From assembly GCA_900313905.1 (NCBI GenBank), contig OMTG01000172.1:1-52803 (forward strand): DNA of 52,803 bases, written 5' to 3'. The translations under genes and the position numbers were made by a program. The stretch comes from an uncultured Actinomycetes bacterium (lineage in GTDB: Bacteria; Actinomycetota; Coriobacteriia; Coriobacteriales; Atopobiaceae). The first letter of the stretch is position 1. Each line of letters starts with the position of its first letter. The notes below the pieces were generated by a model. The model saw only the letters and a program-made list of their open reading frames with translations, was not told the origin of the DNA and did not search any database. Shown piece by piece: positions 29,191 through 42,032 of the stretch.

Positions 29191-29643
29191 ATGCGCGCGC
29201 TCATCCAGGTCGTGGATCAGGCAGAGGTCACAGTCGACAGCATGGCCGTAGGCTCCTGCGGAGCTGGCCTCTGCATCTTTGTCGGCGTCGTCCCCACCGA
29301 CACGGAGGGGGTGGCAGACCGCCTCTGGCACAAGATCTCGCACCTGCGCATCTTCGCGGACGGCCAGGGCAAGACGAACCTCTCCGTGCATGATGTGAAG
29401 GGATCGGTCCTGCTCGTGAGCCAGTTCACGCTCTGCGCCGATGTCTCACGCGGGATGCGGCCCTCCTTCACGGGTGCCGCAAAGCCCGATCTGGCACGTC
29501 GCCTCTTCGACCATCTCGTGGACGAGGCCCGGCGCGACCTTGGAGAGGACCGGGTCGGAGAGGGTGTTTTCGGCGCCCACATGAAGGTCTCCCTCACGAA
29601 CAATGGACCCTTCACGATCTGGCTTGATACGGAGACGCTCTGA
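29191..29643 (+). CDS. dtd: D-aminoacyl-tRNA deacylase
   Basis: A 150-residue protein matching DTD over its whole length. It has MRALIQVVDQAEVTVD at the start, the catalytic SQFTL motif (LLVSQFTLCADVSRGMRPSF) and the C-terminal NNGPFTIWLDT, where most relatives read N-x-G-P-V-T. It removes D-amino acids (and glycine from tRNA-Ala) from mischarged tRNA. It lies six bases downstream of the carboxypeptidase gene in one operon. Confidence 0.95.
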   Translation: MRALIQVVDQAEVTVDSMAVGSCGAGLCIFVGVVPTDTEGVADRLWHKISHLRIFADGQGKTNLSVHDVKGSVLLVSQFTLCADVSRGMRPSFTGAAKPDLARRLFDHLVDEARRDLGEDRVGEGVFGAHMKVSLTNNGPFTIWLDTETL

Positions 29644-29660
29644 CACCTTTGAGCCACCAA

Positions 29661-29692
29661 GAAGGGGCCCTGCCGGCTGGCAGGGCCCCTTC
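29661..29692. terminator. Terminator after dtd
   Basis: A perfect 14-base stem GAAGGGGCCCTGCC / GGCAGGGCCCCTTC with a four-base loop, between dtd and the convergent LytTR gene. It may serve both strands. Confidence 0.8.
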
Positions 29693-29717
29693 CCCATATC
29701 CCGTGCATGTCCGCTTC

Positions 29718-30482
29718 TCAGATGCGCAGCGCCCGTCTGAGGAGGGCCTTTACCTCCCCCACCCGGCGTGCTGGCACCGGCAGGCTCGTCCCCTCATCCA
29801 GGATCACGTATCCGGGACGCATGCCCACCACATGGCTGACATTCACCGCATAGCCACGATGGATGCGGATGAAGCAGCCGTCGAGACGCTCCAGGAGATG
29901 GCTGATGCCCTCGCTCATGCGGAACGTGCCTGTCTCAGTATGGACGAATGTCGACTGGCGGTTCGCCTCCACATAGACGATATCGCTGAGGTTCAGGAAG
30001 TGCGAGACGCCTTGCGCATCGCGCAGGGCGATCGATTCACGCACTGGACGGGGAATCGATTGGGCCTCGGCAGCAGGCTCTGCCTCCCCTTCATCCCGCG
30101 CGCCGGCAACCGCTTCGGAGAGATGGAGATGGACGCATGCGATCCGTCCCTCCTCCTCCTCCCATACCATGGTGAGGCGGCACGCCACCAGCTCGCCCCG
30201 GATGGTGGCGACAAAGCGGCTTGCCGTGATGCAGGCATCGCCTGCAAGCGGATAGGGATGCGTCTCGATATCCTTCACCGAGCTGACCGCATGCTCCATC
30301 CCGAGGGATGCAAGGGCCACTTCGAGCTTGTCCTTGCCGAGCAGCCAGTCACGCTCCAAGGGGCCGATTGCCACGGCCCTGTCGGAGAGGAAGGAGTCCA
30401 TCTCCTGCGGATCTGGGTTCGCAAGACTGCCTATGAGCCTCTCCGCCATGCGGATGGCGTCTTCCTGCAGCTGCTTTCTCAT
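29718..30482 (-). CDS. NTF2-like (SnoaL) / LytTR DNA-binding regulator, paralogue A
   Basis: A 254-residue protein with two parts. Residues about 1-120 resemble a SnoaL/NTF2-like cone (MAERLIGSLANPDPQEMDSF ... ACRLTMVWEEEEGRIACVHL). Residues about 155-254 are a LytTR DNA-binding domain (SDIVYVEANRQSTFVHTETG, GCFIRIHRGYAVNVSHV). There is no receiver domain and no membrane segment, so it is not a response regulator in the usual sense; the NTF2-like part may bind a small ligand or another protein. It is paralogous to the gene at 30744-31550. The ribosome binding site is an unusually full match to the 16S end and lies in a small hairpin. Confidence 0.85.
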   Translation of the reverse strand: MRKQLQEDAIRMAERLIGSLANPDPQEMDSFLSDRAVAIGPLERDWLLGKDKLEVALASLGMEHAVSSVKDIETHPYPLAGDACITASRFVATIRGELVACRLTMVWEEEEGRIACVHLHLSEAVAGARDEGEAEPAAEAQSIPRPVRESIALRDAQGVSHFLNLSDIVYVEANRQSTFVHTETGTFRMSEGISHLLERLDGCFIRIHRGYAVNVSHVVGMRPGYVILDEGTSLPVPARRVGEVKALLRRALRI

Positions 30483-30486
30483 TGCA

Positions 30487-30499
30487 GGAGATCACCTCC
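30487..30499 (-). promoter_or_regulatory. Extended Shine-Dalgarno within a small hairpin
   Basis: On the minus strand GGAGGTGATCTCC lies seven bases before the ATG. GGAGGTGATC is a ten-base complement to the 16S rRNA end, and GGAG pairs with CTCC around five bases, so the site could partly mask itself. Confidence 0.4.
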
Positions 30500-30685
30500 A
30501 TCCTCGATGTCCACCACAAGAGCAATGCGGATCCCGCTAGGAATCGTTGCATCGCTTTACTAAATAAGTTGATATTTGAGTTTAGCCGGCTTGAGCAGCA
30601 AAAACACGAGGCTCACACGAAAGACCAACCACATTGAACAGAAACTTCCAGGACTGCTGCGAAGGGCGCAGGGGTGTCCACAGAT

Positions 30686-30715
30686 GGGCCCCGCCCCGTG
30701 CTGAGGGCAGGACCC
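30686..30715 (-). terminator. Putative terminator of LytTR paralogue B
   Basis: Arms GGGTCCTGCCC and GGGGCGGGGCCC pair imperfectly around a 7-base loop, 29 bases after the stop codon at 30744. No T run, so moderate confidence. Confidence 0.45.
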
Positions 30716-30743
30716 AATGACACGCGATGCCGCATCCCTGCGC

Positions 30744-31550
30744 TCAGAGCGTCCCCAAGGCGCGGATCGCGTTCTCCACGTCCTTGCGCACCTGGACCGA
30801 GCGACGCTCCGGCATCGGGATGGAGGTCCCATCGTCGAGCAGAATCGTGCGGGTATGGATCTCCCGCACATGGGAGACATTGATCACGAAGCCACGATGG
30901 ACCCTGAGGAAGCAGGGCGGAAGCTCTGCTGCCGCCTTGCCGAGGACCTTCGCGAGGCGGAAGATGCCTTCTGTCGTATGCACCATCGTGTACTGGCGCT
31001 CAGCCTCCAGATAGACCACCGCATCCGCTTCGAGGAAATGGGCGATGCCCGATGAGTCACGCATGACAAGGGGCTGCGACGGCGCATGCATGAGGGGCGC
31101 ATGCTGCACCGCCACCTCATCGCCACGCCCATCGGTGGCCTTCTGCCGCGACTGCCAGGTCGGCGTCGAGATATGGAGATGGAGGAGCTTCAGCTTGTCG
31201 TCCTCCATCGTCCAGAGGCAGGTGAGCCTGAACCGATAGGAGACAAACTGCTTCGGGGCGGTCGAGTAGCTCGCCAGCACATGGCCGCAGACCAGGACAG
31301 CCCGGTCGCTTTCCGCACGTACCTGGAAATAGTCCTCGGAGATCTTCTTGTCCTGGAAGGCGTCAAACGAGACGTAGGAGAAATAGGACATGAGCGCTTG
31401 GTCGCTCAGGCAATATTCGTCAGCGCTCGGACCGATGAAGGTGAAGCCTGCAGCCAGATACGGCCGGCATATATCCATGTCCTGTGCCCACAAGGCGCGG
31501 ACGAACTCTTCGGAATATCGAAGTGCCTTCTCCGAGAGCGTACCCTTCAT
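30744..31550 (-). CDS. NTF2-like (SnoaL) / LytTR DNA-binding regulator, paralogue B
   Basis: A 268-residue relative of the gene downstream of it, with the same architecture: an NTF2-like domain (about 1-140, YSEEFVRALWAQDMDICRPY, FIGPSADEYC, LTCLWTMEDDKLKLLHLHIS) and a LytTR domain (about 165-268, ADAVVYLEAERQYTMVHTTE, PCFLRVHRGFVINVSHV). The ATG at 31550 with GAGGG nine bases upstream is preferred to a GTG three codons earlier. An ACAGTTCAT sequence, a match to the LytTR half-site pattern, lies upstream of it, so self-control is possible. Confidence 0.85.
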   Translation of the reverse strand: MKGTLSEKALRYSEEFVRALWAQDMDICRPYLAAGFTFIGPSADEYCLSDQALMSYFSYVSFDAFQDKKISEDYFQVRAESDRAVLVCGHVLASYSTAPKQFVSYRFRLTCLWTMEDDKLKLLHLHISTPTWQSRQKATDGRGDEVAVQHAPLMHAPSQPLVMRDSSGIAHFLEADAVVYLEAERQYTMVHTTEGIFRLAKVLGKAAAELPPCFLRVHRGFVINVSHVREIHTRTILLDDGTSIPMPERRSVQVRKDVENAIRALGTL

Positions 31551-31907
31551 GGCAACCACCCTCTTCGCCCACCCTATCTCAGGAGCTGAGCAGATGAACT
31601 GTCATTACAGATATACCAATTCTCAGACATGATGTTGCGATGACTGCACGAACGATGTTTTATTACGAACAGATGCATCATCGAAGCCCATCAACGGTCG
31701 GTGAGCGTCGAAGTGCAGGAAACATGCAGGCCTGCCAGACAGAAGCATAGTGAATCTGTCCCCCTGAATGGGGCTGAAAGCACATCCGATGATTTTCCGT
31801 TGAGCGAATGGAATCCTGCAGCCAAAAGCGGCTGTGCCTTCCCCGTCTATCATTGAGGCAGGCAGCGTTGCTGCATCGTTCCATACCTTCCTTCCGAGGA
31901 GGCAGCC
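31551..31907. other. Intergenic region between divergent LytTR and small-protein genes
   Basis: About 357 bases. It holds one LytTR-like half-site (ACAGTTCAT read on the minus strand near 31592), a short stem GCAGCC / GGCTG near 31819-31833, and a TATCAT -10-like box near 31850 for the rightward genes. No supportable coding frame. Confidence 0.4.
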
Positions 31908-32402
31908 ATGCGAAGACCGGCAAAGATTGCAGCTGCAGGCATAGCGTTGTCCATTGCCGCGCTCGCCCTTGCTGCAGCCGCGATCCTCTGGAGCTCTCAG
32001 TCCTCAGACAACGTCTCGAACCTCATACCACCGGCCATCGTAGGGGGAGTCGTCGAAGAGATCGGGAGCGTCCCGGATTCCGCTTCGGCGAATGGAGATA
32101 TTTCCTATATCGAGATACGCGTGATCGGAGCGGATCAATACGACGATCACCTGCTGGGAAAGGGATATGCCTTCATGCCCGCAGAAGGCGATATGCTAAC
32201 CCTTATCCGCAGCGAGCACACTGCCGGCTTGTACGGGCCAGAGCCGCAGGTTGGCGATGCGATAGAGGCGATGGTCTGGTACTACAGGAAAGAGATGCAG
32301 ATCGACGGCGAAAGCCGGTGCGCATACGATGCCTACACCATCGACACATACAGCCACATCCTCGAAATGGGTCATGAACCCCGTTACCCCTTGGGCTCAT
32401 GA
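31908..32402 (+). CDS. Membrane-anchored small hypothetical protein A
   Basis: A 164-residue protein with an N-terminal hydrophobic segment (about residues 8-29, Ala-rich) after Arg-Arg-Pro-Ala-Lys, then an extracytoplasmic domain of about 130 residues with VVEEIGSVPDSAS, ISYIEIRVIGAD and DAIEAMVWYYRKE. No Cys follows the anchor, so it is not a lipoprotein. GAGGAGG lies before the ATG. It is related to the next gene: both have a hydrophobic N-terminus, a G-x-V-x-x-I segment and GDAI-x-AMV. The family is not recognised. Confidence 0.7.
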   Translation: MRRPAKIAAAGIALSIAALALAAAAILWSSQSSDNVSNLIPPAIVGGVVEEIGSVPDSASANGDISYIEIRVIGADQYDDHLLGKGYAFMPAEGDMLTLIRSEHTAGLYGPEPQVGDAIEAMVWYYRKEMQIDGESRCAYDAYTIDTYSHILEMGHEPRYPLGS

Positions 32403-32452
32403 CTGTACCCGTAGCAGAGGCCCATCACTTCATCGGCCGAAAGGAGCACGCA

Positions 32453-32986
32453 ATGCCGAAAACGATGCAGAGGGCGCTTGTCCTCTTCTCCCTTGCCACC
32501 CTGGCCGCAGCAGCGCCCCTCATCTTCCGTGCCAGCGGAAGCTTTGAGGAGTATTGCGGCAGAAGCGATGCCCTGCCGCCGATGCTGCTCGACGGCACGG
32601 TCACAGACATCGTCCCTGCCGGCTCAGACAGTGACCCGACCTACATCTTCGTCGAGGTCACAAGCTGCAGCTGGGATACGCTTCCCCAGTCTGGAGAGAC
32701 CGCCTGTCTCTCCTATACAGCAGGCCGCCTCCAAGGGCCTGCTCCCGCCACAGGAGACGCTATCTCGGCCATGGTCGACAAGGACATGGCCGAAGCCACC
32801 GTCGAAGGCGAGCGCCGAAGCGTCGTAAAGGTCCACACGATCGCAACTGACGCATACTATGAAGAACAGAGGCGCGCAGAAGAAGAGCGCCGCGAGGACT
32901 ACGAGAAGAGCCAGAAGGCCTACGAAGAGCTCGACCAGCAGCTCAAAGAACAGGCCCAGACCATGCAGTCGCCGCAGCTTTTCTGA
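32453..32986 (+). CDS. Exported small hypothetical protein B with C-terminal coiled coil
   Basis: A 177-residue protein starting MPKTMQRALVLFSLATLAAA (AGGAG six bases upstream), with a signal-like hydrophobic segment and an extracytoplasmic domain resembling that of its upstream neighbour (LLDGTVTDIVPAGSDSDP, YIFVEVT, TGDAISAMVD). It ends in a charged Glu/Arg/Lys/Gln-rich coiled coil of about 45 residues (YYEEQRRAEEERREDYEKSQ) that the neighbour lacks. A longer frame starting at 32399 overlaps the previous stop but has no ribosome site. Function unknown; the two form an operon. Confidence 0.7.
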   Translation: MPKTMQRALVLFSLATLAAAAPLIFRASGSFEEYCGRSDALPPMLLDGTVTDIVPAGSDSDPTYIFVEVTSCSWDTLPQSGETACLSYTAGRLQGPAPATGDAISAMVDKDMAEATVEGERRSVVKVHTIATDAYYEEQRRAEEERREDYEKSQKAYEELDQQLKEQAQTMQSPQLF

Positions 32987-33018
32987 AAGCCCTGCACAGC
33001 CGCCCAAAGGCTCCAGAA

Positions 33019-33053
33019 GGAAGGAGGGCACCCCCACGGGATGTCCTCCTTCT
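33019..33053. terminator. Terminator between protein B and livF
   Basis: AAGGAGGGCA and TGTCCTCCTT pair with one mismatch around an 11-base loop, between two convergent transcripts. Confidence 0.6.
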
Positions 33054-33077
33054 GCAGCTTGCTCTATGCCTTTCTGC

Positions 33078-33785
33078 TCAGCCGCCGAGATAGGCGCTCT
33101 TCACGGCGCTGTTGTTCAGCAGCTCCTCGCCGGTGCCGGTGAGGACGATGTTGCCGACCTCGAGGACATAGCCCCGGTCTGCGATGGAAAGCGCCATCTG
33201 GGCGTTCTGCTCGACCAGCAGGATGGTCGTGCCTTCCTTGTTCAAGGTCTCGATGATATCGAAGATCTCGTCGACCAGGATGGGTGCGAGTCCCATGGAC
33301 GGCTCGTCGAGCATCAGGAGCTTCGGGTGGCTCATGAGAGCACGTCCCATAGCGAGCATCTGCTGCTCGCCGCCGGAGAGCGTGCCAGCCACCTGGCTGC
33401 GGCGCTCCTGGAGGCGCGGGAAGTACTTGAAGATGAGCTCCATCGTCTTCTCGTTCTCATCGTTCGTGCGGAGATAGCCGCCCATCTCGAGGTTCTCCTG
33501 CACGGTCAGGTTCGAGAAGACGCGGCGTCCCTCCGGGCAGAGTGCCATGCCCTTCGCGACGACCTTGTGGGCTGCAAGGCCCGTGATGTCCTCGTCCTGG
33601 TAGACGATCTTGCCCGACCGCGGCTTGATGAGGCCAGCGATCGTGTTCATCGTCGTCGACTTGCCGGCACCGTTGGCACCGATCAGGGAGACGATCTCGC
33701 CTTCGTTGACCTCGAAGGAGATGCCCTTCACGGCGTGGATGGCGCCGTAGTAGACCTGGAGGTCCTGGACAGTCAGCATGCTCAT
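33078..33785 (-). CDS. livF: Branched-chain amino acid ABC transporter ATP-binding protein LivF
   Basis: A 235-residue ATPase of the HAAT family. Walker A GANGAGKSTT, signature TLSGGEQQML, Walker B LLMLDEPSMGLAP and the switch His in VEQNAQ region are all present. The start overlaps the livG stop by four bases (ATGA). It is the last of livHMGF and energises uptake with LivG. Confidence 0.95.
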   Translation of the reverse strand: MSMLTVQDLQVYYGAIHAVKGISFEVNEGEIVSLIGANGAGKSTTMNTIAGLIKPRSGKIVYQDEDITGLAAHKVVAKGMALCPEGRRVFSNLTVQENLEMGGYLRTNDENEKTMELIFKYFPRLQERRSQVAGTLSGGEQQMLAMGRALMSHPKLLMLDEPSMGLAPILVDEIFDIIETLNKEGTTILLVEQNAQMALSIADRGYVLEVGNIVLTGTGEELLNNSAVKSAYLGG

Positions 33786-36876: not shown

Positions 36877-38061
36877 CTACTCTGCCTCGACCGTCTTGAA
36901 GACCTTCTGGGAGCCATTCTCGAAGGTGATGACCAGGGTCGGCTTGACAGGGTCGCCGGTGCCCTCGTACTTGATCGTGCCGGTGACGCCGTCGACGGTG
37001 CCAGAAGCGATGGCATCGATGACCGCCTGCTTGTAGTCGTCAGAGCCAGCCTTTGCCTTGCCGTCCTTCTCGACGGTCTCGATTGCGTTGGCGATGACCA
37101 TGGCCGCATCGTAGCCGAGGGCGCAGAAGTTCGACGGCTCCTCGTTGAACTTGGCCTTGTAGTCGGAGATGAACTTCTGGACCTTCTCGTCCTCATTCTC
37201 GGAGACGAAGGAGCAGTCATAGAAGCAGCCCTCGAGGTCCTCAGCGCTTGCGTACTCCTCGGAGCCGCCCACGATGTTGGACCAGCCGTCGGCGCCCATG
37301 AAGGCACCCTTGTAGCCCTGCTGGCGAGCCTGGGTGACGATCTTGCCGTCGTCCTGGTAGTAGTTCGGGCAGAAGACGGCGTCCGGGTTGCCGGAGATGA
37401 TGGTGGTCAGCTGACCATTGAAGTCGACATCGCCTGCAGCGTAGCCCTGCTGGGTGGTGATGGTGATGCCCTTGTTGCCAGCCTCCTCGACGAATGCGTC
37501 GTTCACGCCCTTCTCGTAGTCGCCGCCGGAGTTGTAGATGGTGCCAACGGTCTTGTAGCCCTGGTCGGCTGCGAAGTCGGCCATCAGCTTGCCCTGATAC
37601 GGGTCGGTGATGCAGGCACGGAAGGCATTGCTGCCGTACTTGATGAAGTCCGCAGCGGTAGCGGAAGCGGAGACGAGCGGCATGTTGTCGTTCACGGACT
37701 GCTGTGCGACAGCGATGGACGGCGTGGAGGTAACATCGCCCAGGATTGCGACAACACCGGCCTCGACCATCTTGTTGTAGGCGTTCACAGCCTCGGTCGC
37801 GTCACCCTTCTCGTCCTCTTCGTCGAGCTCGACCTTCTTGCCGTTGATCTCAGGGTTCAGCTCGAAATAGAGCTCTGCGCCATTGCGGACAGCAAGGCCA
37901 TACTGGGCGACATCGCCGGAGAACGGGCCAAGGACGCCAATCTTGATGGTGTCAGAGCCGGAATCGGAGCTGGAGCCTGAATTGCCGCAGGCTGCGAGGC
38001 CGAGGGCAGCGGCAGAGGCGCCAGTTGCCTTCAGGAATGAACGACGCGAGATGTTTGCCAT
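36877..38061 (-). CDS. livJ: Branched-chain amino acid-binding lipoprotein LivJ
   Basis: A 394-residue periplasmic-type binding protein. The signal region MANISRRSFLKATGASAAAL carries a twin-arginine-like RRSFLK motif, followed by the lipobox LAAC; then a Ser/Gly/Asp linker, and the mature domain with IKIGVLGPFSGDVAQYGLAV. The start at 38061 (GGGAG eight bases upstream) is fixed by the signal peptide; the frame extends to 38145 over the promoter. The protein captures branched-chain or related amino acids for LivHMGF. Whether export is by Tat or Sec is not certain. Confidence 0.95.
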   Translation of the reverse strand: MANISRRSFLKATGASAAALGLAACGNSGSSSDSGSDTIKIGVLGPFSGDVAQYGLAVRNGAELYFELNPEINGKKVELDEEDEKGDATEAVNAYNKMVEAGVVAILGDVTSTPSIAVAQQSVNDNMPLVSASATAADFIKYGSNAFRACITDPYQGKLMADFAADQGYKTVGTIYNSGGDYEKGVNDAFVEEAGNKGITITTQQGYAAGDVDFNGQLTTIISGNPDAVFCPNYYQDDGKIVTQARQQGYKGAFMGADGWSNIVGGSEEYASAEDLEGCFYDCSFVSENEDEKVQKFISDYKAKFNEEPSNFCALGYDAAMVIANAIETVEKDGKAKAGSDDYKQAVIDAIASGTVDGVTGTIKYEGTGDPVKPTLVITFENGSQKVFKTVEAE

Positions 38062-38134
38062 AACAGATTCTCCCTTTCTGTTGTGTCTGCAAATCCCTTT
38101 CAGGACTTGTTCATAGAATAATGGCTTGGAAGCC

Positions 38135-38162
38135 AGAATAGACAAATATTGATATCTGTGAA
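38135..38162 (-). promoter_or_regulatory. livJ promoter
   Basis: TTCACA (38157-38162) and TATTCT (38135-38140) on the minus strand with 16 bases between; the start point would be near 38128, leaving a leader of about 67 bases. Confidence 0.6.
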
Positions 38163-38563
38163 ACTTTTGAATTTCTTTCGAAACAAATCATCTGCCAGTG
38201 GCTGCCTGGAGCGACGGGAATCCACGTTCAGAAGGACTCTATGGCAAGATCTCGGCCCATGCGTCAGCGTCCTGCATCCTTCCGCTGCCCCTTGGACATA
38301 GGTGCAGCTGCATGGACATCTTCGCTTTCGCTATGCCCGAAGGCGGTCTGAACCCGCGTTTGCCTTCTGGACCAGATGCAATGTCCCCATGGAGGCAATC
38401 CATGCCCAGTTAAAGGAGCAGCGCAGTTTTCGGAGAATTGCATCCCGAAGTGCAATTGCAGGTAGCGCCACGGCGGCATCGATAGCTTCTTCGGTGGAAC
38501 AGGTACCTTCAAAGATAACTGGCTCAAACAGGCCCGACGCATGAAACTTGGCTAGAAGTTTTC
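38163..38563. other. Gene-poor stretch left of the AAA/TOPRIM island
   Basis: About 400 bases. On the minus strand a frame without ATG reads LAKFHASGLFEPVIFEGTCS and on to LPAIALRDAILRKLR (about 38342-38600). It has plausible codon use but no start and no family that I recognise; it may be a decayed gene linked to the neighbouring repeat. Confidence 0.35.
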
Positions 38564-38690
38564 TTGGTTTTAGTGCGACGAAAGACCCTGAAGCAGTTTG
38601 ATCCCAGTCAACCTTAAGGAATTATCCCCCTTTCCCATCGCATCCAATGGGCTCATTCCTGAGGCCTCATGCCGTGCCAGATTCCTTGCC
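38564..38690 (+). repeat. Direct repeat, left flank of the AAA/TOPRIM pair
   Basis: Matches 41007-41130 in the same orientation at perhaps 70-75 per cent. Best segments are GGGCTCATTCCTGAGGCCTC and GTGCCAGAT (GCGCCAGAT in the other copy), preceded by AGTTTGATCCCAGTCAA versus AGTTTAATCCTAGTCAA. Read on the minus strand both copies keep ARHEASGMSP in one frame, which hints at an old coding origin. Confidence 0.75.
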
Positions 38691-38736
38691 GTCCAGACAG
38701 ACATATTGATGCCACGACGGTGCCGTGCTGCATCCA

Positions 38737-39426
38737 TCAATTTGGAGCGAACAGAGTCCCCAGATTCGAATGACGCTGGAGAGAGTTGTCGCCCGTCTCT
38801 ATGAATTGCCAAGTCTCCTTGCGAGTGCCCATCACCGAAAACAAGGAATGGCAGATGAAATCCAGAAATCCAGCAATATCGTCATGGTATCTACGTGCAA
38901 AACGTATTGCCTCGTCTTCCTTTTCAGAATCGCTCAGGTTTCGTTTGTCATAGAGCACATGGTCAAGATTGCAGGACATGTAGTACGGTTCATAAGGAAT
39001 GCTTTTCTATATTTTGTAAGTCCCGCAGAGCTTCTGCATTACTGCTGACTTCTGCTCATTCCTATGAACAATTGCCTCGAAATTATGGCACCGAATCTCA
39101 TTATCGAAGTACCGTGCCCGATCCACCTTATCGTCTTCGAACACTCTGGAGCTATCGACAAAGGCGCCATCAGTGTCCATAAGATGAATGACCTTTATGA
39201 AGTCCCCTTGTCTCAGTCCGTTGCGCGTCGCATATGTCTTCACCATGTCGGCAATCTTTCGAAGCACATTGCCTACGTTGGTGTTCTTGTCCGATGTTAT
39301 GTCCCCATGCACAACATGAACGTAGACCTCCGCGCCATCCTTTTTGAGCGCGTGGTCAAACATGACATGTAGCGCCTCATCATCTGAAGGCCCTTCCAGT
39401 ATCACGAAAGCAATCTTCCTACTCAA
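38737..39426 (-). pseudogene. TOPRIM-domain effector gene interrupted by an in-frame TAG
   Basis: The frame begins with TTG at 39426, which overlaps the AAA gene stop by eight bases (ATTGAGTAG) and has AGGTGA just ahead, so translation is coupled. Residues 1-139 hold a TOPRIM-like pattern: KIAFVILEGPSDDEALHVMF with the Glu, and KVIHLMDTDGAFV with Asp-x-Asp at about 84-86. A TAG at 39007-39009 follows GTYKI. Without any frame change the sequence continues SIPYEPYYMSCNLDHVLYDK and on through SLFSVMGTRKETWQFIETGD to a stop at 38737. The complete product would be 229 residues; as written, only the 139-residue N-terminal part is made unless the amber codon is read through. Partner of the AAA ATPase in an OLD/PARIS-like pair. 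Confidence 0.72.
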
Positions 39427-40846
39427 TGCTCTCACCTGCCTGGCGCATGGCATAGGCAATTTCCCCGTTGCTTGTATGCTCGTAGAGCTCATCGGACGAT
39501 TCACCAAGAATGATGCTCCTGAAATACATATTCCTGAGATTGTTCGTCTCCTTTGCTCCCTTCAAACGCACATACCGATTGCTTGGATCCGTGCTCGTAA
39601 ATACGATGAACCGCTTGTCCAAAGTCTCAAGAGGCCTCAGGTTATGCGACGTGAAGATCAGCTGTCCCCTTCCTCCATTCGCAATAATCGCGAGGAGCTC
39701 TCCCAATAGATATTCGAATATGCCGGAGTCGAGCTCATCAATCGCGACAGTGACTGACGGCTCGTTATACATGAGAATCAGTACCTGCAGTACCGATACG
39801 ATCTTCTTGATTCCCTCTGATTCACAGTCAAGAGGCAGGACAACGTCTCCACGCCTAGAGAGAAGCTGTATGCGCTGGCCTTCGCTGCCATCGTCGAGAA
39901 TGACTTTGCCAAATTCCCTAATCTCCATCTCAAGACCAGGCACAATCTGTCTTAGCACGATATTGAGACTTGCGATGATCTTCTTCGTGACCGCCAGCTG
40001 CTTTTCAGGTATGTTGGTCGGCACATCGGCTCTCAGCATCTCATGGCCGGAGATTCTTGTCCCCTCGGATGTTTCCATGCGGAAAACCAGAGGCAAAGCC
40101 GAGAGCCCGATGGAGTCAACCAACGAGGTTTCGACGACAAAGAGTCCATCCATCCCATAGAAGGCAAGCGCATCAATTACATCTGCGCAGGCATCAATGA
40201 TGCCGCATGTCTGATCCGAAGATTGGCCATCATCACTATTGGGTTTCATATCTTCCCTGAATTCCCGTGAGAAGATGAAGGATCTCGACTCTCTGATGGC
40301 CACCCGCTTCGCAACAACAAGATTGAGGAAAGACTCTTTTCTATCTCCGACAAATCGACGCAGCATGGTATCAGGGCCGAAAGCGTCTCCCTGCCCCGTA
40401 TCAATTACCCTGCGCAGGCGGCCAGAAGATGCAGTTCCGGAAACCGCAATCTTGAGAACCTCGCGCGAGACATAGACAGACAGAAGCCCCTGCGCATCAG
40501 CAGCTTCGACAGCAGCGTCGGAATTGCGCCGCGTCAGGGTCACCTCATAGACCGCCCGATACGTTTTGGAGCCATCAGTGATATTGAAAATGTACTCAAT
40601 TGTCGCAGAGGCATACCCGAATTCAATGAATGTCTGTGCTTTGGAAGACAGACGATCTCCCGTCAGAGAGCTCTTGAGAACTCCCATGGCATTGATAAGC
40701 GAAGTCTTGCCCGATCCATTCTGCCCGTACACAGCAAGAATGTCCGCAGAGCGACTCTGCGCTTTCCCCATTTCGATGATGCCTTTCTGGACATTCTTGA
40801 AGTTGGTCAGCGAAACACTGCAAAGCCTCACGGTCCAGCGGCTCAT
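39419..40846 (-). CDS. AAA ATPase of the AAA_15/AAA_21 (OLD/RloA/AriA-like) type
   Basis: A 475-residue SMC/ABC-like ATPase. It has LTNFKNVQKG at the N-terminus, Walker A VYGQNGSGKTSLINAM (about 41-49), a long middle region, then Walker B SVTVAIDELDSGIFEYLL and QLIFTSHNLRPLETLDKRF, the usual ABC-type D-loop and switch His. Such ATPases paired with a TOPRIM protein are known as anti-phage systems (PARIS, Gabija, RloAB and relatives). The start at 40846 has GGGAG seven bases before it. The good promoter and dyad upstream, the lower GC and the flanking repeats suggest acquisition as a unit. Confidence 0.85.
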   Translation of the reverse strand: MSRWTVRLCSVSLTNFKNVQKGIIEMGKAQSRSADILAVYGQNGSGKTSLINAMGVLKSSLTGDRLSSKAQTFIEFGYASATIEYIFNITDGSKTYRAVYEVTLTRRNSDAAVEAADAQGLLSVYVSREVLKIAVSGTASSGRLRRVIDTGQGDAFGPDTMLRRFVGDRKESFLNLVVAKRVAIRESRSFIFSREFREDMKPNSDDGQSSDQTCGIIDACADVIDALAFYGMDGLFVVETSLVDSIGLSALPLVFRMETSEGTRISGHEMLRADVPTNIPEKQLAVTKKIIASLNIVLRQIVPGLEMEIREFGKVILDDGSEGQRIQLLSRRGDVVLPLDCESEGIKKIVSVLQVLILMYNEPSVTVAIDELDSGIFEYLLGELLAIIANGGRGQLIFTSHNLRPLETLDKRFIVFTSTDPSNRYVRLKGAKETNNLRNMYFRSIILGESSDELYEHTSNGEIAYAMRQAGESIE

Positions 40847-40878
40847 AATCTTGCTCCCATGCATCAATATTGGGGATG

Positions 40879-40894
40879 TTCAATCGTGATTGAA
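40879..40894. promoter_or_regulatory. Palindromic operator candidate at the AAA/TOPRIM promoter
   Basis: TTCAATC-GT-GATTGAA is a perfect dyad with seven-base arms, placed right at the expected transcription start downstream of the -10 box. Confidence 0.55.
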
Positions 40895-40923
40895 ATATTA
40901 AATGTCATTTTCTGCGATGTAAA
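40895..40923 (-). promoter_or_regulatory. Promoter of the AAA/TOPRIM operon
   Basis: TTTACA (40918-40923) and TAATAT (40895-40900) on the minus strand with exactly 17 bases between, five of six matches each. Confidence 0.75.
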
Positions 40924-41283
40924 CCCAATTTAGACCTATCAAAGGGTATTCATTGTCAAGATGTCTCAGATTAAATAATATGGGCTCCCCACAAAGTTAT
41001 CTTTGGTTTACTATTGACGAAGCTGCACAGAAGTAGTTTAATCCTAGTCAAGCGATAGGAATTAGCCCCTTCCCCTCGCATACATAGGGCTCATTCCTGA
41101 GGCCTCGTGCCGCGCCAGATCCAGCAGACCCTCTCCCTGCTGGATCTTTTTTGTGCCGAGCGTGCTTCCTTGCAGGGACTGCATCGCAGCATGGAAAAAG
41201 CACCGGTACACGTAGCCATGCCATGCTTCGCATACCAGTGCTCTTCTTCTTGGCAGCGCCCTCTCCCTCCCAGGAGCGGGATG
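40924..41283. other. Stretch right of the AAA promoter
   Basis: About 360 bases, AT-rich at first, then the right-hand repeat copy; beyond it there are only frames without motifs or ribosome sites. Confidence 0.4.
41007..41130 (+). repeat. Direct repeat, right flank of the AAA/TOPRIM pair
   Basis: Second copy of the element at 38564-38690, same orientation. Here the minus-strand frame shared with the first copy contains several stops, so it is decayed more strongly. Confidence 0.75.
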
Positions 41284-41775
41284 CTATGCAACCTCTTCTG
41301 CCCCCTGCTGGTCGATGCAGCTCAGAAGCAGCGGAAGCGTCTCGTCGATGACATCAGCCATGCGCTGCGCGATGGTGACGCACGCATCGCTTGCACCATG
41401 CCCCTGCAGGAGCAGATCGTAATGGCCGACGATGTAATCTGAGGAGTTCAGATTGAACTTGATCCAGCGCTGCTGGTTGTTGGCAGCGTTGCAGACCGCC
41501 AGAGCCTGTGCGGACTGGCTCTGCGGAACCTTCACCAGAGGCGAGGACTGGAAATGGACCTCTTCCCCGTCCGAGCTGAAGATGGCATAGACATACAGCT
41601 GCGGAAGCGGCTTCGTGCCCACATGCTCGAACTTCTCCGAATGGCCGGAGCGCGGCTTCTCGCCGAAAGCGATGGACACGATGGGCGACTTCCCCATTCT
41701 CAGTACGTCATATACGTAGTCGGAATTGTCCAGCTTGAGTATAAAGGATTGAAAGCGTTTCTCTGCGGACGACAT
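41284..41775 (-). CDS. YbjN-like hypothetical protein
   Basis: A 163-residue soluble protein starting MSSAEKRFQSFILKLDNSDY (AGGAGG seven bases before the ATG at 41775). The C-terminal half, with VCNAANNQQRWIKFNLNSSD, YIVGHYDLLLQG and a final helix of about 25 residues, resembles the YbjN / type III chaperone-like fold. Function unknown. It lies just outside the right-hand repeat of the AAA/TOPRIM island. Confidence 0.65.
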   Translation of the reverse strand: MSSAEKRFQSFILKLDNSDYVYDVLRMGKSPIVSIAFGEKPRSGHSEKFEHVGTKPLPQLYVYAIFSSDGEEVHFQSSPLVKVPQSQSAQALAVCNAANNQQRWIKFNLNSSDYIVGHYDLLLQGHGASDACVTIAQRMADVIDETLPLLLSCIDQQGAEEVA

Positions 41776-41990
41776 AGCTTGCCTCCTTCGTCTCATATTC
41801 CCGCCATGACTTTCGCCCCTCGCTTCTCCTAGTCTTGCCTAAAATTCTTTCAGCTTCGTTTTGGCCTCGTAACCACTACGTGGATGGTTGGTCTTTTTCT
41901 GTAAACGGTTCATACCACGAGGGGTCCTGATGCAGTTGTAGCGATGCAAAGGCAGAAACTATACAGTTTTCTTGCAGAATGATACCAATT
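41776..41990. other. AT-richer intergenic region
   Basis: About 215 bases between the YbjN-like gene and the dipeptidase terminator; it should contain the promoter of the YbjN-like gene. No frame supported. Confidence 0.3.
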
Positions 41991-42032
41991 ATGAAATATG
42001 GCAGCTCAAATATCAGAGCTGCCATATTTCAT
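41991..42032 (-). terminator. Strong stem-loop after the C69 dipeptidase gene
   Basis: A perfect 17-base inverted repeat (ATGAAATATGGCAGCTC and its complement) with an eight-base loop, 26 bases after the stop codon. No long T run follows but the base of the stem is AT-rich. Confidence 0.65.

Follow-up and report, generated by a model that had tools for sequence, protein, structure and literature searches.

One-component regulators in which a sensor domain is fused to a LytTR DNA-binding domain have been described before, and in RcoM, for example, the sensor is a PAS domain. CoxC has a membrane MHYT sensor. RcoM and CoxC bind direct-repeat operators of three repeats, and LytTR sites are given as 9-bp direct repeats 10-13 bp apart, as far as the available text of PMC11347149 goes. 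Receiver-less LytTR regulators are also found in the LytTR Regulatory Systems (LRS), such as HdrR/BrsR of Streptococcus mutans, in which a membrane inhibitor is encoded with the regulator and autoregulation is positive; the accessible part of PMC6193735 reports that in autoregulated LytTR promoters the repeats are 11-13 bp apart and strongly biased to a position 10 bp before the -35. Response regulators of the AgrA/LytR type have the same LytTR fold, whose DNA-contact motif is FhRhHRS (PMC4227749, in the excerpt available). Here we analysed a window of 52,803 nucleotides from an uncultured member of the Atopobiaceae (contig OMTG01000172.1), which contains two adjacent genes on the minus strand, gene A (P0001; 29718..30482, 254 aa) and gene B (P0002; 30744..31550, 268 aa), each encoding an NTF2-like domain joined to a LytTR domain. 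Our results make it rather probable that A and B form an autoregulated and cross-regulated one-component LytTR switch with a CaMKII-hub-like NTF2 input domain.

The first-pass annotation had described A and B as adjacent paralogues with an NTF2-like N-terminal domain in place of a receiver and a C-terminal LytTR domain, and each of these statements held. Both reading frames are intact (gene B has an alternative GTG start at 31559), and the two proteins align end to end with 28% identity (E 8e-37). In the Pfam scan the LytTR domain (PF04397, curated cut-off 22.6 bits) was recognised at residues 161-248 of A (29739..30002, minus strand; E 2.2e-15, 57.1 bits) and 171-256 of B (30783..31040, minus strand; E 6e-14, 52.5 bits). 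The DNA-contact motif is kept at six of seven positions, as FIRIHRG in A and FLRVHRG in B, with the last S replaced by G; since FhRhHR is intact in both, A and B would be expected to recognise a common site. The N-terminal half of A (residues 1-122; 30117..30482, minus strand) passed the DUF4440 cut-off (25.4 vs 25.2 bits, E 2e-5) and fell under that of SnoaL_3 (19.1 vs 22 bits), and it was also matched by the NTF2 profile in its own genome. That of B (residues 1-130; 31161..31550, minus strand) passed SnoaL_3 (25.9 vs 22 bits) and fell under DUF4440 (22.4 vs 25.2 bits). SnoaL_3 and DUF4440 proteins mostly stand alone; here the domain is an input domain. The same scan, read to E 1, listed neither a receiver nor the CaMKII association domain (PF08332) for A or B, and no transmembrane (TM) segment was predicted in either protein. 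The genome that holds the window has eight LytTR matches, and only A and B match the NTF2 profile. Judged by eye, five of the other six LytTR frames start receiver-like and one starts with a short unrelated stretch.

An AlphaFold2 model of B was built from 17 aligned sequences (mean pLDDT, the predicted local distance difference test, 84.8; predicted template modelling score 0.56), with low confidence in the linker (residues 132-157). Foldseek and VIA-align matched residues 1-130 to NTF2-like folds, the best being a CaMKII hub (Z 15.6, 2.7 A over 128 residues), which answered for B the doubt that the N-terminal part might not be NTF2-like after all. The LytTR domain 3d6w_B was the match for residues 159-260 (Z 13.7, with 102 residues superposed at 2.3 A). 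In the structure comparison, other NTF2-like folds came within 1 Z of the hubs, which we counted as a tie, and the term CaMKII-hub-like therefore rests on Foldseek, VIA-align and a sequence profile jointly. That profile, of 19 N-terminal domains (A5), was run against the PDB and picked up CaMKII hubs (best E 1.6e-8), and the two sides align at the motif TxVW...HxHxS. From these models and matches, the CaMKII-association-domain branch of the NTF2-like superfamily appears to be the closest. The hub and our domain have fold and motif in common, whereas the latter, known here from single-chain models, is bacterial, N-terminal and fused to DNA binding. Over 34 distinct N-terminal sequences W113 was invariant, and R108, T110, L122, H124, H126, S128 and P130 each exceeded 3 bits. 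The polar residues among them (R108, T110, H124, H126 and S128) alternate along strands 4 and 5, with mean conservation in strand 5 of 3.01 bits at even and 1.59 bits at odd positions. From this alternation, the conserved polar face may line a pocket.

The likeness to hubs can also be read in another way, which we regard as possible but not probable: the NTF2-like domain would be an assembly hub only, holding LytTR domains together constitutively, and regulation would come from the protein level through autoregulation rather than from a ligand. CaMKII hubs, the nearest structures to the N-terminal domain of B, are best known for oligomerisation (PMC9120016, in the part available), and we recognised no ligand-processing gene beside the A-B pair. 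However, the five conserved polar residues suggest a pocket, the cavity of the CaMKII hub contains conserved charged residues (PMC4859805, in the text available), and ligand-bound hub entries exist in the PDB, to judge by their titles (7rec, 9eoy). Furthermore, two genomes of the order have a related N-terminal domain joined to GGDEF (L227 and L228), once with a PAS domain between; SnoaL_3 scored over its cut-off in L227 and under it in L228. To be joined to GGDEF in some proteins and to LytTR in others is, as far as domain content tells, the behaviour of an input domain. As for the earlier proposal that A and B are one-component regulators sensing a small molecule, the anatomy bears out the first half (NTF2-like input and LytTR, with neither TM segment nor receiver), while the sensing fits the fold, the polar face and the GGDEF fusions.

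The regulatory part of the proposed switch rests on a predicted operator common to both genes. The upstream regions of A and B from the window genome and from a congener, G015, were aligned, and conserved blocks were seen. Of the two-block matches present in all four upstream sequences, TYTGTTC-N11-TCNTTCGT was the best, with 13 of 16 columns identical. None of 2000 column permutations and none of 2000 block permutations attained the four-way score, and a reversed or reverse-complemented partner gave 8. The predicted operator of B, TCTGTTC-N11-TCGTTCGT, lies at 31648..31673 and that of A, TCTGTTC-N11-TCTTTCGT, at 30617..30642, both on the minus strand, kept in G015 and matched exactly in the genome search. 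Each consists of direct repeats centred on GTTC and TTTC with a period of 17 bp, leaving 8 bp between 9-base half-sites. In the window genome (2.78 Mb) there were three exact matches, none with one mismatch and eight with two, compared with 26 within two mismatches for a backwards control pattern. G015 had two exact matches, both at A and B, and 18 with two mismatches against 34 for the control. The two-mismatch matches, outnumbered by the control, are therefore noise. Two of the exact matches in the window genome, at A and B, are the source of the pattern, so the only new one is C176:10473. This third exact site (L152:1501-1526; G000 C176:10473) lies between a gene for a WYL-domain regulator and one for a TM-anchored protein. 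It is not kept in the G015 orthologue (best 10 of 14) and stays a candidate. Beside it we observed a TGTCCCAT / ATGGGACAG repeat that is kept in G015, which may be the WYL regulator's own site.

The surroundings of the operators resemble autoregulated LytTR promoters as described in the available text of PMC6193735. All four promoters (A and B in two genomes) show one arrangement: a poor -35 position stands 10 bp after the site, and a further 16 bp separate it from a -10-like hexamer (TAAACT or TATATC), which puts that hexamer 32 nt from the end of the site. The putative weak promoter of B (31610..31637, minus strand) would have CAACAT and TATATC, and that of A (30579..30606, minus strand) TGTTTT and TAAACT. 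We could not detect a sigma-70 consensus promoter anywhere in 29600-33100. There was no terminator-like site between B and A, so read-through is possible. In the mechanism that we favour, A and B would be soluble one-component transcription regulators in which the NTF2-like domain takes the place that the receiver has in ordinary LytTR response regulators. This domain would probably dimerise the protein and hold a small ligand in a cone-shaped pocket, and the LytTR domain would bind the two direct repeats. The repeats would end about 10 bp before the weak -35 position at both genes, for which reason each member of the pair most likely activates transcription of its own gene and of its partner's; binding of the site by A and B and activation are both predictions. 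Mixed dimers of A and B may form as well, and the common predicted operator and the tandem pairs in two further genomes (see below) are compatible with such heterodimers.

Among the known systems, A and B are like the LRS in lacking a receiver, in the direct repeats, two in number, which would here stand about 10 bp ahead of the -35 if the weak hexamers are the right ones, and in positive autoregulation, which we presume for A and B. They differ in the NTF2-like domain, in the tandem paralogue and in the gap between repeats (8 bp vs 11-13 bp), again within the available part of PMC6193735. Moreover, no membrane partner gene lies downstream of A, where a convergent Tyr-deacylase gene follows with no gene between. 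With RcoM and CoxC they have in common the fusion of a sensor domain to LytTR and a direct-repeat operator, but their input domain is soluble and NTF2-like and the repeats are two. AgrA/LytR-type response regulators share with them the LytTR fold and, except for the last S, the contact motif, but not the receiver, which the Pfam scan did not list for A and B, nor an adjoining kinase gene, which was not recognised here.

We also asked other genera for the site. A motif made from the window's genus only was scored against 18 other NTF2-LytTR upstream regions (L053 was excluded as a near-copy of L050), and seven of them (L042, L046, L047, L048, L052, L055 and L056) scored 11-13 of 14, with 0 of 100 shuffles. 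Among 11 further regions, that of G121 scored 12 (0/100 shuffles), and two scored 11-12 (1-2 of 100 shuffles). A loosened pattern, made after the transfer matches had been seen, was run on 12 genomes and gave 24 exact matches, 10 of them upstream of an NTF2-LytTR gene, compared with nine matches for the backwards control. Each of the ten genomes of g27 and g32 had one such regulator match, and the two g9 genomes had none; in four of the ten (G097, G104, G107 and G113) the upstream regions had previously been unscored.

Several observations weigh against the operator and against autoregulation. The similarity of the A and B sites was not significant from the window alone (30 of 300 shuffles reached it) and weaker still in G015 alone (195 of 300), and therefore the case rests on the four-way conservation. 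The 8-bp gap between half-sites falls outside the range of known LytTR sites, and a canonical LytTR pair (9-base repeats with at least 8 of 9 matches, period 19-24) was absent from the four upstream stretches, those of A and B included. The -35 hexamers are poor and the chosen -10 hexamers match at only four of six positions; the window B promoter has a better hexamer, TGTAAT (5/6), at 38 nt, and the window A promoter has two others that score equal to the chosen one. The site is not universal either, with no clear match in 11 of the 18 and 8 of the 11 other upstream regions. Six of the seven matching regions and that of G121 belong to one orthologous neighbourhood, near lipase-like and glycerol-kinase-like genes (named by eye), where site and regulator have opposite orientations. 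The regulator's own strand also carries, in L042 and L056, a DUF3592 gene on the side of the site, so the site does not simply face a divergent promoter.

TYTGTTC-N11-TCNTTCGT might also be bound by another regulator, or be part of a lineage-specific promoter, while A and B act elsewhere. Nothing links the site physically to A and B, it points away from the regulator in the lipase and glycerol-kinase neighbourhood, the third exact site precedes another anchored protein, and 19 of the 29 other NTF2-LytTR upstream regions have no clear match, with two of the remaining ten borderline. Nevertheless, we hold this explanation to be rather unlikely. The site recurs at NTF2-LytTR genes (10 of 24 matches in 12 genomes, one per genome in ten), and its distance from the promoter is that of LytTR activators in the text available from PMC6193735.

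Another explanation concerns the two paralogues themselves: A could be a copy of B that is inactive or antagonistic, so that one paralogue keeps the site-specific role and the other only titrates it. A does diverge faster (54% identity to the congener, vs 68% for B) and its similarity to SnoaL_3 is weaker. However, A in the window has an intact frame and keeps both WxxxxxxxxxxxHLHxS and FhRhHRG, nearly so in G015, where A has the variant HAHFS, and it carries its own conserved predicted site. We consider such a role of A improbable.

The architecture is not confined to this locus. The NTF2 profile matched in 44 of 140 genomes of the family, in 13 of 35 genera; LytTR was checked for some of these matches, and most of the frames are about fusion-sized. 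According to the first-pass annotation, LytTR occurs mostly in fusions with receivers or membrane domains, which agrees with the literature consulted, yet by this count the NTF2-LytTR fusion is frequent in the family. Outside the family we found the fusion in Longicatena, in metagenome-assembled genomes (MAGs) of Enterocloster, Bacillota and Cryptoclostridium, in Bifidobacterium myosotis, and in a record titled Murimonas (marked unverified). A phylum-wide search of 149 genomes with a whole-protein profile gave mostly LytTR-only matches and is unusable as a count of the architecture. Two further genomes have tandem NTF2-LytTR pairs. The pair of G130 (L229:1-7958) has a radical-SAM gene and an ABC transporter as neighbours; that of G247, a genome from another family of the same order, shows only LytTR in Pfam, and its NTF2 part comes from the whole-protein profile. 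L229 also holds two short similar peptides with a common GGCDID stretch, a possible cluster for a ribosomally synthesised and post-translationally modified peptide (RiPP).

We read 19 regulator loci (L040-L058), which supplied 18 of the 20 proteins scanned. Pilus genes (VWA tip-pilin-like or FctA) adjoin the regulator in six of the 19 loci, two of which (L050 and L053) are near-identical, and a sortase gene in one; an S26 signal peptidase lies beside three of the six. An FctA domain was found within 5 kb of 9 of 29 NTF2-type genes in 14 genomes (0.33 expected at random) and within 8 kb of 10 of 29 (0.52 expected), in genomes chosen partly for holding pilus loci and with several copies orthologous, leaving about 4-5 independent cases. 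The window's own A-B pair has no adjoining pilus operon. Output of the regulators may include cell-surface proteins, which would be the divergent anchored pair here and sortase pili in some relatives. A wider idea, which we put forward as speculative, is that the CaMKII-hub-like NTF2 domain could be a general ligand-sensing module of gut Coriobacteriia for LytTR (transcription) or GGDEF (cyclic di-GMP) outputs that switches surface structures such as sortase pili, with mixed A-B oligomers on a short-spaced (17-bp) operator as a new mode of LytTR DNA recognition. Upstream of the pilus-adjacent NTF2-LytTR genes at L049 and L062 (G051 and G090), about 230 bp are almost identical and the identity then ends abruptly on the far side, as if a neighbouring module had been swapped. 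In G279 the gene divergent from an NTF2-LytTR gene (L231:6630-10319) encodes a protein of 1229 aa that has a subtilase domain and predicted TM segments.

The literature searched covered few subscription papers, so its silence is weak evidence: LytTR was not found together with SnoaL or "nuclear transport factor 2", nor with Olsenella, and the one paper with both LytTR and NTF2 held unrelated content. The A-B architecture is real and undescribed in that literature; it adds to the LytTR one-component regulators and does not amount to a system of a new kind. Since both Pfam families are already known, automatic annotation will list the combination. What it would add is a soluble input domain of the NTF2/CaMKII-hub type, frequent in a host-associated bacterial family, and an exact predicted site is available for testing. 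Some such regulators adjoin sortase pilus loci, and a signal for surface remodelling in commensals can thus be searched for as the ligand of a small domain. The finding also bears on the use of CaMKII-type hub domains outside the kinase.

Divergent from B, the window carries P0003 (31908..32402, plus strand) and its paralogue P0004 (32453..32986, plus strand; 33% identity, E 5e-9), both with an N-terminal hydrophobic segment. The outer domain of P0003 is weakly predicted to be OB-like: the model, from three sequences, reached a pLDDT of 70.9, and the top Foldseek rows were mostly OB folds, all with E >1e-3, so the fold is a weak lead. Pfam matches to EspC (P0004) and MFS_MOT1 (P0003) were below cut-off and were dismissed. 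Gene order is kept in G015 as ABC transporter (liv-like, named by context), anchored protein, B, A and Tyr-deacylase. Between the window and G015 the anchored protein is 45% and the deacylase 69% identical, compared with 88-94% for carboxypeptidase M32, ROK, arginine deiminase and the transporter genes. Homologues of P0003, of which G015 has one, occur in two of the 140 family genomes; these are also the two with the A-B pair, and a third genome of the genus has neither.

The suggestion that A and B control this divergent pair is in line with the adjacency and the co-occurrence, but the predicted operator of B, although it sits in the divergent gap, points to B and is some 235 bp away from the anchored gene; no site at up to three mismatches faces 31908. 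At that tolerance the window has six matches, the two exact ones and four elsewhere, and 31 of 100 shuffles give at least six. The search for paired LytTR half-sites that had been recommended upstream of 31550 and 31908 thus yielded a related pair of shorter spacing before B, and likewise before A, in place of the canonical one, and nothing facing P0003. Regulation of the anchored proteins, like that of pili, would follow from gene neighbourhood. G015 also has, between B and the anchored protein, a gene (L039:7075-7449) whose product of 124 aa has four predicted TM segments and matches nothing in Pfam; no counterpart was called in the window's gap between B and P0003, and by eye the stretches before P0003 and before the G015 four-TM gene showed no clear common element when aligned. 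Farther along the window, the region 38000-42000 has a guanine-cytosine content of about 50%, compared with about 60% around it, and contains an AAA_21-type ATPase gene (39419-40867); it is possibly a mobile or defence island.

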